DNA from: Picochlorum sp. 'celeri'
Taxonomy: Eukaryota > Chlorophyta > Trebouxiophyceae
Length of the DNA stretch: 64,000 bases
Direction of reading: 5' to 3'
Assembly (NCBI GenBank): GCA_010909725.1
Contig: JAACMV010000002.1
Coordinates: 1,116,001-1,180,000, forward strand
The translations under genes were made by a program, and so were the position numbers. This document shows, piece by piece, positions 23,925 to 51,475 of the stretch. Each line of letters starts with the position of its first letter. Positions within the stretch are counted from its first letter, which is position 1. The notes below the pieces were generated by a model, which did no database searches, was not told the origin of the DNA, and saw only the letters and a program-made list of their open reading frames with translations.

Positions 23925-26744
23925 TCACTTTTCCGTTAGTTCACGACAGCCCTCCCAAGTTGCAGGTGGAATTCCACCTTGTGATTGCATGAATGCTAAC
24001 AGTGCCATTGATGGCCCATCGCCCAAGTCCTTCAGCCTTTCAAGTATTCCCATAGACTGTCGCCAACGGCCTTGTATATATAGAGTATATGCCTCGTGAA
24101 ACGTATCAAGCAGTTCAATACCATCGGGGGAGGATATCCATGGAACAGACGCAATGTCTGGGTGCTCATCAAATTCATCAAGGTATGGGTAGTCTGAGAA
24201 ACTCAAATGTCCACCGGACTCGTGTCCATTTTGCTCCGAGTTGAAACTGCTTCTTCTTCCCTGAGAAGAGTCCGGTCCTCTGTGACTTGTTTCTTCTCTA
24301 AAATCGGCCTTGATTGTGTACAGCGTGGTTGGAATAAAACTACCTTTGACAAGAACTGTATCAATAGCTCGGCACCTTTCCTGATTTTGCGGGGACAAGA
24401 GAGAATAAAAACTGTCTGACAGCAGAATGGGTACATGATACTGTTTGGTGGCTGCCTCCAACCTTGCTGCCATATTCACATGCGGAGACAAGTACGACGG
24501 ATCAATTTTATGATGGGAACCAATGGCCCCCTCAATAGCCCATCCAACATGTAATCCAAATCCCATGCTTGCCCTGAAACCAGGAATCTTTTCTTGCATG
24601 TCTTCTCTATCGCAAAATTTTTTTAGTTTTGAGGACCTATCTAGAGCTGATTTTATGATTATCATCGATGCAAGAGCTGCGTCCGCAAGGTGCTGAGTTA
24701 TCTGCAACTGTATGTCCGGATCTTCATCACCACCCCAGAGCATTGCTGCCTTTGCCTCTATGATGCTGCCACGCGATCTCTTGTACTTTTCCTGACATTC
24801 TGGTAATTTCCATACTACCAGAAAGGCATCACCAATATTCTTATTTGGTGCTCCACCGTGGAAACTTACCTCTGCATGCACAATCGATGCAATGCAATTC
24901 ACAAACTCCATGATGTCCTCTTGCAGAACTTCTGTTGCAGAGGTGAAATTTCGAATGTCACAAAACCCAAATATTGCCCTCACTCTTCTTCCTGGGAGCA
25001 TGGGATTTATGTCACCCCCACTTTTGATATTGTTGGCAATGATCTCCGCCCCTGCTTCCCCAAAGCCCACTGAGAGTAGGTTGCAAACTTTTCCTATAGA
25101 CCGTTCCAAAACTCTTGTTTCCAACTGCTTCGACTTTTGCTTTTCATCTTTATTGACATCTATTTTAAGCGATGATAACGGATTCTCACTCATTTGTTTG
25201 ACCTGCTGTACCATTCTTTCAATGGGCTGCAATACTAACGAATCTGCATCTCGAATGAAAAAGACAGCACCCAGTGATAGCACCATGAGGAGGAATGTGA
25301 TCCTTGCTATATCTAGTAATGCCTGAAATTGCACATCCCATCTCACATCAATCCAGGCTTCTGTAATATTTGCTGCAATACCATCAATCTCTGCTACCTG
25401 AAATAACAGATCGCAAGGCTGTAATGCATTCTGAACTTTTGCTTGCATATACAGTCTCCCAGAGACAAATAAACGTACCTGAACTGACGAAGACTGCTTT
25501 TCGGTCCTCCTCAGATCGTTAAAGCGCTCAGATTCAAAAAAGGTGATATTGTGGACAACTAACTTGATCAATCTACCGGTGGTTCTGCCACCAACTTTGT
25601 ATTCATTCTCATGCTTGTAGTCCCTTAACGCGCTCTGGAAAGCTGATGAATTGCCTTCGTTGGCAAAGAGATTATGCAAAGTAACGACCCCTCCTTCCTC
25701 AAAAGACGTGGCACTACCATAAAACACCCAGGAATCAAACACAGGCAAAACAGATAGAAGGATCAAAACTCCAAGGATCACTTTCCTCATTGTCATCTCC
25801 GTCAACTTTTCCCCAACCCTTGTTTGTGGCTTTAATGTGGTCATCTGGAATTGCATTGCACCGTTTTCACTTTCACTCTCACTTGTGGACCTGGATAATC
25901 GTAAATCAGATGCTTTGTTGGTTCGCAGACGAAGGCGCTTTGCTCGAAGCCTGAGTAACTGCAGCACTGAGATAACTTGCATGATCCTAGCTGCCCGTGC
26001 CCCTGCCTGAGCGGCCTTGGCCATCCTCTCGAGTGTCAAATGACGATTGGAATCATCTGAGTCAATTGTTATTAGATCCACAAAAGCTGGAATGTCACAT
26101 AGAAGCGAAAAAGAAGCCACTAAATCCATCCAGAAATAAAACCTGAATGAATCATTGGGCATGGTGATGAAATGCAAATGATATCGAGCAAATACGTTCT
26201 AGTACACACCTGAAAAAGTATCCAGGGCGGCATAATGAAGATAGAGTGATCTCTATCGCGAATATAACCACTGCGGTGATGACAAACGCGAGGAAAAATG
26301 GATCTAAATCTGAAGGTGCAACTGCAACCCTAATGAGGTCCGCATATAAAATCTGCAATGCACGCATGTTACTGTCTCAAAATCTCATTCAAATGATTCC
26401 ACGATGCCACTCATGGTAACACGCACCATTAAAGTAAATATGATGGAAGCCAACGTGAAAGGAACTCCATCCATCTTCCGCCTCAATTTCTTCTTCCACT
26501 CTTCATTGCATTCACTCTTCCCCTTGAATAGCTCAATGATCGATTTTTTCTGCTGGGGCTTTTCCACATATGCTTTTGCTTCTATCTGAATCATGGAAGA
26601 ATCTCTCTTGGAACTTTTCGATAGCGGACTAACACTAGACAACTCACTGTGCCGTTGCCCAGGACTCTCCATGGATTCCTCTTTCTCCTCTCCCCCCATT
26701 GGAGTATCACGATCAGGAGCCCCCATTCCGAATACACTATTCAT
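23925..26744 (-). CDS. Class III adenylate/guanylate cyclase with N-terminal channel-like membrane domain
   Basis: Three exons: 26427-26744, 26210-26352 and 23925-26142, with introns of 74 and 67 nt in phases 0 and 2, giving about 892 aa. After a soluble N-terminus, spliced helices FTLASIIFTLMILYADLIRV, FFLAFVITAVVIFAIEITL and FRFYFWMDLVASFSLL resemble S1-S3 of a voltage-sensor/ion-transport domain, followed by a basic RLRAKRLRLR stretch. Two further membrane helices bracket an extracellular region (about 280-470), then a HAMP-like LQPIERMVQQVKQM. The catalytic domain (about 540-740) has FGFCDIRNFTSATEVL with the first metal Asp, NKNIGDAFLVVW with the second, and NMAARLEAATKQY. It should make cAMP or cGMP; specificity is not readable. 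No pore loop is seen. Confidence 0.85.
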
Positions 26745-49003: not shown

Positions 49004-51475
49004 ATGGGACAGACAATGCAGTCTTCGTTACCACAGGAAGGTTCTGCCATTTCGCTGAGTTCCATGTTGTCGGAAAAAGATAAGAATGGGGGGATGATCA
49101 AAACAAAAACTACTAGGAAGACGGTCTTCTCGAGAGATTTGAGAATGCCCCAGTCTCCCCTCAGCCAGTCCATTCAGCAGCGTACTCTTGATAGCTGGAC
49201 AATAACCTATTCCATCATCATTGTTGGATCCCTGTCCTATTTGACATCTATTTGGTTATTATGCTACTATTTACCCACGGGAGATGCAATTGTGGTGCGA
49301 GATGAGTTCTATTCTGGAATACCAGCAGCTCTATATTCGATGCCAACGGCAGCATTTGCCTGTGCTTTGTTTCTCAATCTGTCATCCTTATTCTTTGAGA
49401 ATCACAGGGCTCGCCAGCAGCTGTGTGTGTTAGTCACGTATATATCAGGTGTTGCGTTTTTATATGAGCTTCTCGCATGGTATGGGTCGGCGCCGATTTT
49501 TCTGACGGCGAGCAGCAGACCGCATTCTGCCATGCGGTACATCATGTGGAGCCATGCAACACCTGCCATGGTATATGCGCTATCCATGGTGTCCGAGTTT
49601 TCTCTCCAACGAACTTTTAGAGCAATGATAGCAGATATTTTTATGATTCTGATCGCCATTCCAGGAGAGTACTGTGCATCATGGGTTCTAAGATATGTGT
49701 GCAATACACTTTCCATGGCCATGTTTCCACTTGTTATGCATGAGATTTGGATGATGTTCACCCAGGCTATGGGGGTCGCTTTAGATCACGATAGACAAGG
49801 ATACCATTCGTTGAAGGCGTTGAGGAGTGTGACGCTGGTGCTTTGGAGCATCTTCCCATTTGTATGGGTGCTGTGCCAGTTCCAGTTGATTGATAGTGTT
49901 GTTGAGGAGGGTTTGTTGAGTTTGGCAGACGTCTTTGGTAAAATTGTGTTTTCTTCATCTTTATTACAGAGTAATTTTGTCACCATTGAGGCTCGGAGAA
50001 GGCTTGCATCCAAAGCAGCAGAGGACGCCAATAGAACTGCTGTTATTTATGAGTTGCAGGAATTGTTGGCACAAAAGGAGGAGTTCATTGCGGTTGTGAC
50101 GCACGAACTTCGCACTCCATTGAATGGTATCATAGGCTTGAGTGAAGCACTGTTAGCATCTCGGGTCCTTGACGGTGCCAATGCTCGTAGTCTGAGTGCC
50201 ATTCGGAATAGCGGTATTCGGCTGCTGGCATTGGTAAATGATGTCTTGGACGCTGCGGCCATGAAGCGAGGAACGCTGAGTATTCATGCAAAGAGGCTGC
50301 AGATTTCAAAAATAATTGATGACGTGCTTGAACTGACAGCAGCTTTGGTGAGTCCTGGCGTAAAGCTGTCGACACGGGTGTCTGCAATCACCCCTCCTGT
50401 TTTGGGTGATCCCCAGCGGTTGGTGCAAGTACTCTACAATCTCGTCGGGAATGCATGCAAATTCACTGAAGAAGGAGAAATTTTGATTGAGGCATCTGGA
50501 ACAGCAGATGATGACCACGTGACCGTGAAAGTCCGTGACACAGGAGTTGGGATTCCTGAGAACAAGCTGGATGACATTTTTGTGCCATTTTCGCAGGGCA
50601 ACATGTCACTGAGACGCAAGTATGGAGGGACAGGACTTGGACTCAGTGTTGTGAAACATATTGTCGAGGCGCACGGGGGAACCATCCGCGTAGAATCCAC
50701 AGAAGGTGAAGGGTCATTGTTCACATTCACGATACCATCATGCGTCCATGGACCAGCTGCACGTAGTTCAACGGAATCTGGAGGTAGCGACAAGAGCTCA
50801 GATATGTGGAAACGCTTTTCGCTAGATAGCGAGGCTCGCCATTCATTCGAGTTTGAAAAGAAGATGTTGAAAAAAGCAGGCCAACAGATGGAACCAGAAA
50901 AAGCTGCCAATGTATTCGCCAACAGCAAGCCCAGCTTCCCTGATTTGACTGCAACCACTGATGTGGAGGGCAGGATCAGCGTCCAGGACAAGGGAGATAC
51001 TGATACAACAACTGAATCGAAAATGAAGCCCTCTGATAGTATTTTGAGAGACCTAAAGGACACAAAACTGTTTAGAATTCTGTCTGTGGATGATGATCCA
51101 GTGAACCAGATGGTCGTCCAAGCCATGCTAAAAAACAAAGGATTTGAAGTATCCACAGCAGCAGATGGTGAGAGAGCCTTAGAAATGATTGAAGATATGC
51201 ATAAAACAGATAATCTACCTGATGCCGTCCTCTTGGATGTTATGATGCCAGGTCTGAGCGGCTTTGATGTTGTCAGGCAAGTCAGATCATCCTATCCAGA
51301 ATGGAAAGCACCCGTCCTCCTTGTCTCTGCGTCGGGACAAAAAGAGCAAATTAAAGAAGGCATGGACTCTGGGGCAGATGCATATCTCACAAAGCCGCTC
51401 AAAATTGAAGAACTGCCCAAAACCATCAAGCATTACATTAGAAAGGCGCAAGCCTCGAGTGATGATAGTGAATAA
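49004..51475 (+). CDS. HKR: Histidine-kinase rhodopsin: type-1 rhodopsin + HisKA/HATPase + receiver
   Basis: 823 aa. Residues about 62-330 form seven helices that align with microbial rhodopsins. Helix C is MRYIMWSHATPAMVYAL (177-193), helix F LRSVTLVLWSIFPFVW (273-288), helix G LADVFGKIVFSSSLLQS (307-323). K313 is the retinal Schiff-base lysine and D309 the Asp212 equivalent; the Asp85 site is M181 and the Asp96 site A191. A HisKA domain has FIAVVTHELRTPLNG (phospho-His 367), HATPase has NLVGNACKF, DTGVGIPE and YGGTGLGL, and a receiver at about 690-815 has VDDDP, D745 and K797. Histidine-kinase rhodopsins are sensors of green algae. It ends after the receiver, with no fused cyclase. Intronless. 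Confidence 0.93.
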   Translation: MGQTMQSSLPQEGSAISLSSMLSEKDKNGGMIKTKTTRKTVFSRDLRMPQSPLSQSIQQRTLDSWTITYSIIIVGSLSYLTSIWLLCYYLPTGDAIVVRDEFYSGIPAALYSMPTAAFACALFLNLSSLFFENHRARQQLCVLVTYISGVAFLYELLAWYGSAPIFLTASSRPHSAMRYIMWSHATPAMVYALSMVSEFSLQRTFRAMIADIFMILIAIPGEYCASWVLRYVCNTLSMAMFPLVMHEIWMMFTQAMGVALDHDRQGYHSLKALRSVTLVLWSIFPFVWVLCQFQLIDSVVEEGLLSLADVFGKIVFSSSLLQSNFVTIEARRRLASKAAEDANRTAVIYELQELLAQKEEFIAVVTHELRTPLNGIIGLSEALLASRVLDGANARSLSAIRNSGIRLLALVNDVLDAAAMKRGTLSIHAKRLQISKIIDDVLELTAALVSPGVKLSTRVSAITPPVLGDPQRLVQVLYNLVGNACKFTEEGEILIEASGTADDDHVTVKVRDTGVGIPENKLDDIFVPFSQGNMSLRRKYGGTGLGLSVVKHIVEAHGGTIRVESTEGEGSLFTFTIPSCVHGPAARSSTESGGSDKSSDMWKRFSLDSEARHSFEFEKKMLKKAGQQMEPEKAANVFANSKPSFPDLTATTDVEGRISVQDKGDTDTTTESKMKPSDSILRDLKDTKLFRILSVDDDPVNQMVVQAMLKNKGFEVSTAADGERALEMIEDMHKTDNLPDAVLLDVMMPGLSGFDVVRQVRSSYPEWKAPVLLVSASGQKEQIKEGMDSGADAYLTKPLKIEELPKTIKHYIRKAQASSDDSE

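Follow-up and report, generated by a model that had tools for sequence, protein, structure and literature searches.

A cyclase-less histidine kinase rhodopsin of the Met type in Picochlorum celeri, a probable UV/blue-switched sensory kinase

The window analysed here is a 64,000-nucleotide stretch of contig JAACMV010000002.1 from Picochlorum sp. 'celeri' (Picochlorum celeri), an alga placed in the Trebouxiophyceae. It contains a histidine kinase rhodopsin (HKR) gene as a single open frame (49004..51475, + strand; 823 codons, ATG to TAA) for a protein of 823 amino acids (aa), with a gap of only six codons between the upstream in-frame stop and the ATG. Four Pfam domains, all above their cut-offs and far beyond chance, follow one another in the order Bac_rhodopsin, HisKA, HATPase_c and Response_reg: a type-1 rhodopsin domain (residues 118-320; 49355..49963, +; PF01036, E 1.6e-19), a HisKA domain with H367 (residues 357-420; 50072..50263, +; PF00512, E 2.1e-16), a HATPase_c domain with the N, G1 and G2 motif residues (residues 468-578; 50405..50737, +; PF02518, E 1.1e-31) and a receiver domain with D745 (residues 692-808; 51077..51427, +; PF00072, E 3.3e-25). 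Rhodopsin, HisKA, HATPase and receiver in one predicted protein make it an HKR. This fusion had been recognized in a preliminary description drawn from the letters of the DNA, and the Pfam matches and complete motif residues bear it out. Across the close-homologue alignment, query included, H367 and the HATPase N, G1 and G2 residues are kept in 16/16 rows, and D745, together with the receiver residues D696, D697, S775 and K797, in 15/15 rows with a letter.

Outside the domains, the N-terminal tail (residues 1-62; 49004..49189, +) is predicted to be disordered, with a predicted local distance difference test score (pLDDT) below 50. It includes a SAISLSSML motif (residues 14-22; 49043-49069, +) that recurs in most close homologues reaching that far. 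Between HATPase and receiver, a linker stretch of ~45 residues (MWKRFS.DSEAR.SFEFEK..; approximately residues 596-640; 50789..50923, +) is of low pLDDT and is strongly kept in 15 close homologues; the rest of the linker is of low confidence.

The published P. celeri genome amounts to 27.43 Mb, with a GC content of 46% and 15 scaffolds in each of two sets (PMC7225527), and the GC content of the window is 44-48%. A second HKR allele lies on contig C22. Over an allele alignment of 4393 bases there are 39 mismatches; 16 codons of the gene differ, 5 of them altering the protein, none before residue 505, so residues 1-504 carry no amino acid change, and three silent differences fall within residues 60-335. 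For the HKR protein, the best match in the database is an 823-aa protein of Picochlorum sp. BPE23 ('hypothetical protein M9435_001752'), 99% identical. The second allele, the BPE23 protein and the ends of related proteins all back the 3' end, and with it the earlier claim that the protein stops after the receiver with no cyclase. The query has 26 residues from receiver K797 to the C terminus and no PF00211 match; in the cyclase-less set, query included, 33 of 34 proteins end 18-104 residues past the receiver Lys column, and the remaining one (P0016) stops ahead of the receiver. A truncated gene model with a cyclase downstream was ruled out, as the frame closes at TAA and relatives end alike; the next listed open reading frame (ORF) of at least 250 aa on the 3' side lies on the opposite strand. 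A viral or phage origin was rejected as well: a viral contig scan with the close-homologue alignment, using two patterns that both derive from the kinase part, gave 85 pattern matches and zero confirmed relatives. Matches to phage records were below 60% identity, none covered at least 80% of the query, and five listed rows lay over the kinase/receiver part. The gene is a real and well conserved predicted photoreceptor gene, and a Picochlorum rhodopsin has apparently not been described in the literature searched.

Assignment of the membrane part to the type-1 (microbial) rhodopsins draws on a PF01036 match above the curated cut-off, a PDB sequence match and a match to the seven-helix fold, the best structural match being Rh-PDE of Salpingoeca rosetta (7cj3). 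The profile search, which could have placed this part outside the type-1 rhodopsins, placed it inside. By phmmer against bacteriorhodopsin (BR) and in 4/4 MAFFT settings, M181 (49544..49546, +) occupies the position of the BR Asp85 counterion, and D309 to K313 (49928..49942, +) span the positions of BR Asp212 and the retinal lysine Lys216, as had been proposed earlier. R178, W182, T186, D211, D309 and K313 correspond to BR 82, 86, 90, 115, 212 and 216, and in a profile match M181 falls on Glu164 of Rh-PDE. The retinal lysine is therefore present in the alignment with BR K216, and binding of retinal is predicted from it. Replacement of the Asp96 proton donor by a non-acidic alanine was called correctly in the preliminary description but one residue off: BR Asp96 aligns with A192, residue 191 being Tyr. 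A proton pump, discounted there too, was ruled out here, being very unlikely with M181 and A192 leaving BR85 and BR96 without a carboxylate.

An extra N-terminal transmembrane helix, TM0, went unnoticed in the preliminary description, as did a helix-B carboxylate, E155. TM0 (residues 64-89; 49193..49270, +) is a helix in the AlphaFold2 model with a best 19-residue Kyte-Doolittle mean of 1.69, and the structural match to Rh-PDE (model 4-271) spans it. A predicted, hydrophobic eighth helix covered by that match places the protein, at the level of the model, among the type Ib (8-TM) enzyme rhodopsins. A further predicted helix runs from TM7 towards the DHp region. Rh-PDE shares this 8-TM fold but has a phosphodiesterase output and Glu164 at BR85 (PMC7644710). 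A heliorhodopsin search of the genome gave no match, and the control genomes likewise gave none, so this search was a weak one.

To place the protein among its relatives, the best 120 of 192 profile-search matches were considered, and those with PF01036 in the Pfam column, plus P0058 without it, were aligned; the other listed matches lack a rhodopsin domain. Two single-protein searches returned just the close group, 15 rows each, and Cop5 was reached only by the profile search, as C. reinhardtii CHLRE_02g074150, whose residues agree with the published numbering of Cop5 at 8/8 positions once an offset of 41 is applied. A Gonium protein fits GpRh4, also at 8/8 positions. In the tree of 52 rows, drawn with a midpoint root and several long branches and with P0040, P0054, P0056, P0060 and P0062 left out, 50 Met rows form one group (support 100/100). 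Inside it, 35 rows without cyclase form a branch (98/88) that includes the query, Chlorella sorokiniana and two Micractinium proteins. 'Without cyclase' refers here to Pfam annotations computed beforehand and to a fresh scan of seven proteins, and Trebouxiophyceae membership holds for the four named species, in three genera, alone. The sister branch of 15 rows holds Cop5, a Haematococcus 'chlamyopsin-5', Volvox and Gonium, with PF00211 in 13/15; two Gln rows outside the Met group also carry a cyclase. On the midpoint root, one cyclase loss on the branch leading to the query is the simplest reading. Also of the Met type is the 1446-aa P0041 of Sanguina aurantia, annotated with TPR and sulfotransferase instead of a cyclase, which may be a fused gene model.

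With Met at BR85, Asp212 and Lys216, and a place beside Cop5 rather than among the Gln-type HKRs, the query is assigned by its residues and its position in the tree, both of which the preliminary description had left to be worked out, to the Met-type (Cop5/HKR1) HKRs. The BR85 column has Met in 53 of the 55 rows with a letter and Gln in 2. Met at the counterion position, singled out earlier, is a known hallmark of this family and no novelty: the 2020 table of modular algal rhodopsins in PMC7693036 has it in five rows (Cop5, Vop5, GpRh4, CsRh1 and ApRh1). The same table lists CsRh1 and ApRh1 under HisK and histidine kinase–response regulator (HisK-RR) with no other domain, so that a HisK-RR form without cyclase is also in print (PMC7693036). 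What is freshest here is how large the cyclase-less branch is and that the helix-B acid is invariant.

Cop5/HKR1 of Chlamydomonas reinhardtii, Vop5 and GpRh4 share with the query Met BR85, Asp BR212, Lys BR216, Thr BR90 and Glu BR204, as well as the rhodopsin-HisK-RR order; the N and C termini of Cop5 are reported to be cytosolic, hence type Ib. Cop5, in which the Met is M113, and GpRh4 differ in carrying an extra cyclase and other domains (PMC7693036), and key residues are reported to be missing from the Cop5 cyclase (PMC8006352). The 2c-Cyclops (Cop6/Vop6, light-inhibited guanylyl cyclases) share the 8-TM rhodopsin, histidine kinase and receiver but have Gln BR85, Asn BR212 (PMC7693036) and an active cyclase, against Met, Asp and no cyclase in the query; with no C-terminal guanylyl cyclase domain predicted, the query falls outside that class. 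Two proteins annotated as histidine kinases, P0035 of Chlorella sorokiniana and P0032 of Micractinium conductrix, share Met BR85 and the rhodopsin-HisKA-HATPase-receiver order, with no cyclase found, but are ~41-42% identical to the query and unlike it in the N-terminal and linker regions. The published CsRh1 and ApRh1 we take to be from Coccomyxa and Auxenochlorella. Compared via the published table, they share with the query Met BR85, Ala BR89, Thr BR90, Asp212, Glu204 and Lys216, and differ in having Thr at BR96 (Ala in the query) and a Met-to-Lys spacing of 129 (132 in the query) (PMC7693036).

E155 (49466..49468, +) is an acid, E or D, in 55/55 rows with a letter, among them the two Gln types: Glu in 34/34 of the cyclase-less set, Asp in 14/14 of the Cop5 set used and Asp in both Gln-type rows. 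Neither bacteriorhodopsin nor Rh-PDE, in both of which the helix-C acid is retained, has an acid in the columns aligned to E155. The exact partner of E155 wavers between BR57 and BR59: phmmer pairs the neighbouring Y154 with BR57, and MAFFT places E155 on BR59 in 3/4 settings, one of them weak as it leaves the first half of BR helix B unaligned, and without a BR partner in the other; in two settings its Rh-PDE partner is a tyrosine. E155 may share the Schiff-base charge work done elsewhere by Asp85. In channelrhodopsin-2, helix B bears acids and the helix-C acid is retained too, so a link between the helix-B acid and loss of the helix-C acid is not strict. No Glu85-type HKR (such as Ot-HKR) was among the matches listed, and among HKRs the helix-B acid was hence compared only in those lacking the helix-C acid. 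The idea of a helix-B acid as counterion was not found in print in the literature searched, subscription papers lying outside that search.

Taken at the level of sequence and model, the protein is an 8-helix enzyme-rhodopsin sensor with a retinal lysine, a complete HisKA/HATPase kinase and one complete receiver. We consider it probable that this member of the cyclase-less branch of Met-type (Cop5/HKR1-type) green-algal HKRs is a sensory kinase switched by UV and blue light that feeds into a His-Asp phosphorelay. K313 would bind retinal that the alga makes; with Met at BR85 and just D309, perhaps with E155, near the Schiff base, UV-absorbing deprotonated and blue-absorbing protonated forms would interchange, much as in HKR1. 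The state of the switch would raise or lower autophosphorylation of H367, and phosphate would travel from H367 to D745, to a single histidine phosphotransfer (HPt) protein and on to Myb-type and WD40-linked receivers. Gene expression would track the UV-A/blue light ratio instead of cyclic GMP. The model for this is the Cop5 rhodopsin, a bistable switch with 380 and 487 nm forms, both dark-stable; joined to the enzyme domains of Cr2c-Cyclop1, it gave a chimera activated by UV-A and inhibited by blue/green light (PMC8006352). From Cop5 we infer a UV-A/blue switch that would drive H367 and D745. The earlier guess of a deprotonated, short-wavelength state gains from Cop5/HKR1 having the same Met, but 'missing counterion' was too strong, as D309 remains, the Asp212 equivalent of Rh-PDE is reported to act as counterion by itself and E155 may help.

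Several points weigh against this reading. Colour may not transfer from Cop5, because residues near the retinal differ: BR89 is Ala in the query and Thr in Cop5, BR138 Asn and Tyr, and the BR57 region Tyr-Glu and Ser-Asp. BR96, too, is Ala in the query and Leu in Cop5. The BR89 column is split (Ala 28, Thr 26, Val 1 of 55 rows), with three changes on the tree of the 16 closest rows, among which Met at BR85 shows zero changes. By a rule based on another position, CsRh1, ApRh1 and also Cop5 are predicted to be green-tuned (Table 3 of PMC7693036), but the rule is itself weak because Cop5 is in fact UV/blue. Colour, signalling and phosphorelay route are, moreover, inferences, the last from gene content. 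A visible-light HKR, in which the Schiff base stays protonated through D309 by itself or together with E155, the dark form absorbs in the blue or green, Met only tunes and light inhibits the kinase as in 2c-Cyclop, is a possibility we hold tentatively. D309 is kept in 55/57 rows and residue 155 is acidic throughout, Rh-PDE is a visible pigment in which Asp292, the BR212 equivalent, is reported as sole counterion (PMC7644710), and Cop6, with Gln BR85 and Asn BR212 (PMC7693036), has an action peak at ~540 nm (PMC8006352); yet Cop5, the closest characterized protein with that Met, is a receptor for 380 nm light whose partner form absorbs at 487 nm.

Output from the kinase is a further weak point for the UV/blue-switched kinase, as the Cop5 kinase in a chimera gave just marginal output (PMC8006352). 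This one published Cop5 chimera and the loss of both acidic pump residues would suit a retinal-free or light-blind kinase in which the rhodopsin part survives as a vestigial anchor in the membrane or responds to some other signal. We regard that as improbable: K313 and F284 are kept in 57/57 rows and R178 in 55/55, residues 1-504 are identical between alleles, and three carotenoid-oxygenase loci per haplotype offer a possible retinal supply.

With haplotype pairing of loci taken from paired contigs, the genome search found, per haplotype, three HisKA loci, seven receivers (three within kinases), one HPt locus and three PF00211 cyclase loci besides the carotenoid-oxygenase loci. The sole HPt protein has 130 aa and the motif HQFKGSSASFGA and is encoded at L031:1456-1848 on the minus strand. 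The phospho-Asp is present in the receivers of a WD40 protein and a Myb/SHAQKYF protein and absent from a CCT receiver. Because the genome holds one HPt and these phospho-Asp-bearing WD40 and Myb receivers, the most likely output, judged by gene content only, is a phosphorelay acting on gene expression. Two weaker receivers (L027, G000 C7:1382287-1382637; L029, C4:1034545-1034919) comprise the CCT protein without phospho-Asp, which resembles a clock pseudo-response regulator, and one of uncertain type. A carotenoid-oxygenase locus lies ~3 kb ahead of the receiver-WD40 gene (L038 and L017; G000 C10:929218-930672 and C10:933253-933588), with the same pairing on C16. Within the window, a 750-aa ORF ~23 kb from the HKR (23925-26177, -) carries, as the one Pfam domain found in it, a class III cyclase domain (PF00211, 35.9 bits). 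That the HKR receiver acts on such a separate cyclase would fit three PF00211 loci per haplotype, one of them this near, but the stretches scanned at the three loci showed neither a receiver nor a rhodopsin domain and distance is the sole tie to the HKR; we think this very improbable.

A broader proposal, which we put forward as doubtful, is that in HKRs without the helix-C acid the counterion has been relocated: a helix-B carboxylate would join Asp212 as partner of the Schiff base and govern UV/blue switching, and a widespread algal branch without cyclase would gauge the ratio of UV-A to blue light by way of a plant-like phosphorelay. How a rhodopsin without the Asp85 counterion may set its Schiff-base charge is a question to which the invariant helix-B acid gives an answer open to testing. 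If the UV/blue reading is true, a small, biotechnologically used alga would have a minimal sensor of the UV-A/blue ratio, consisting of one rhodopsin locus, one kinase and one receiver with no cyclase, and it would be a simple setting for asking how the kinase of a Met-type HKR is driven.
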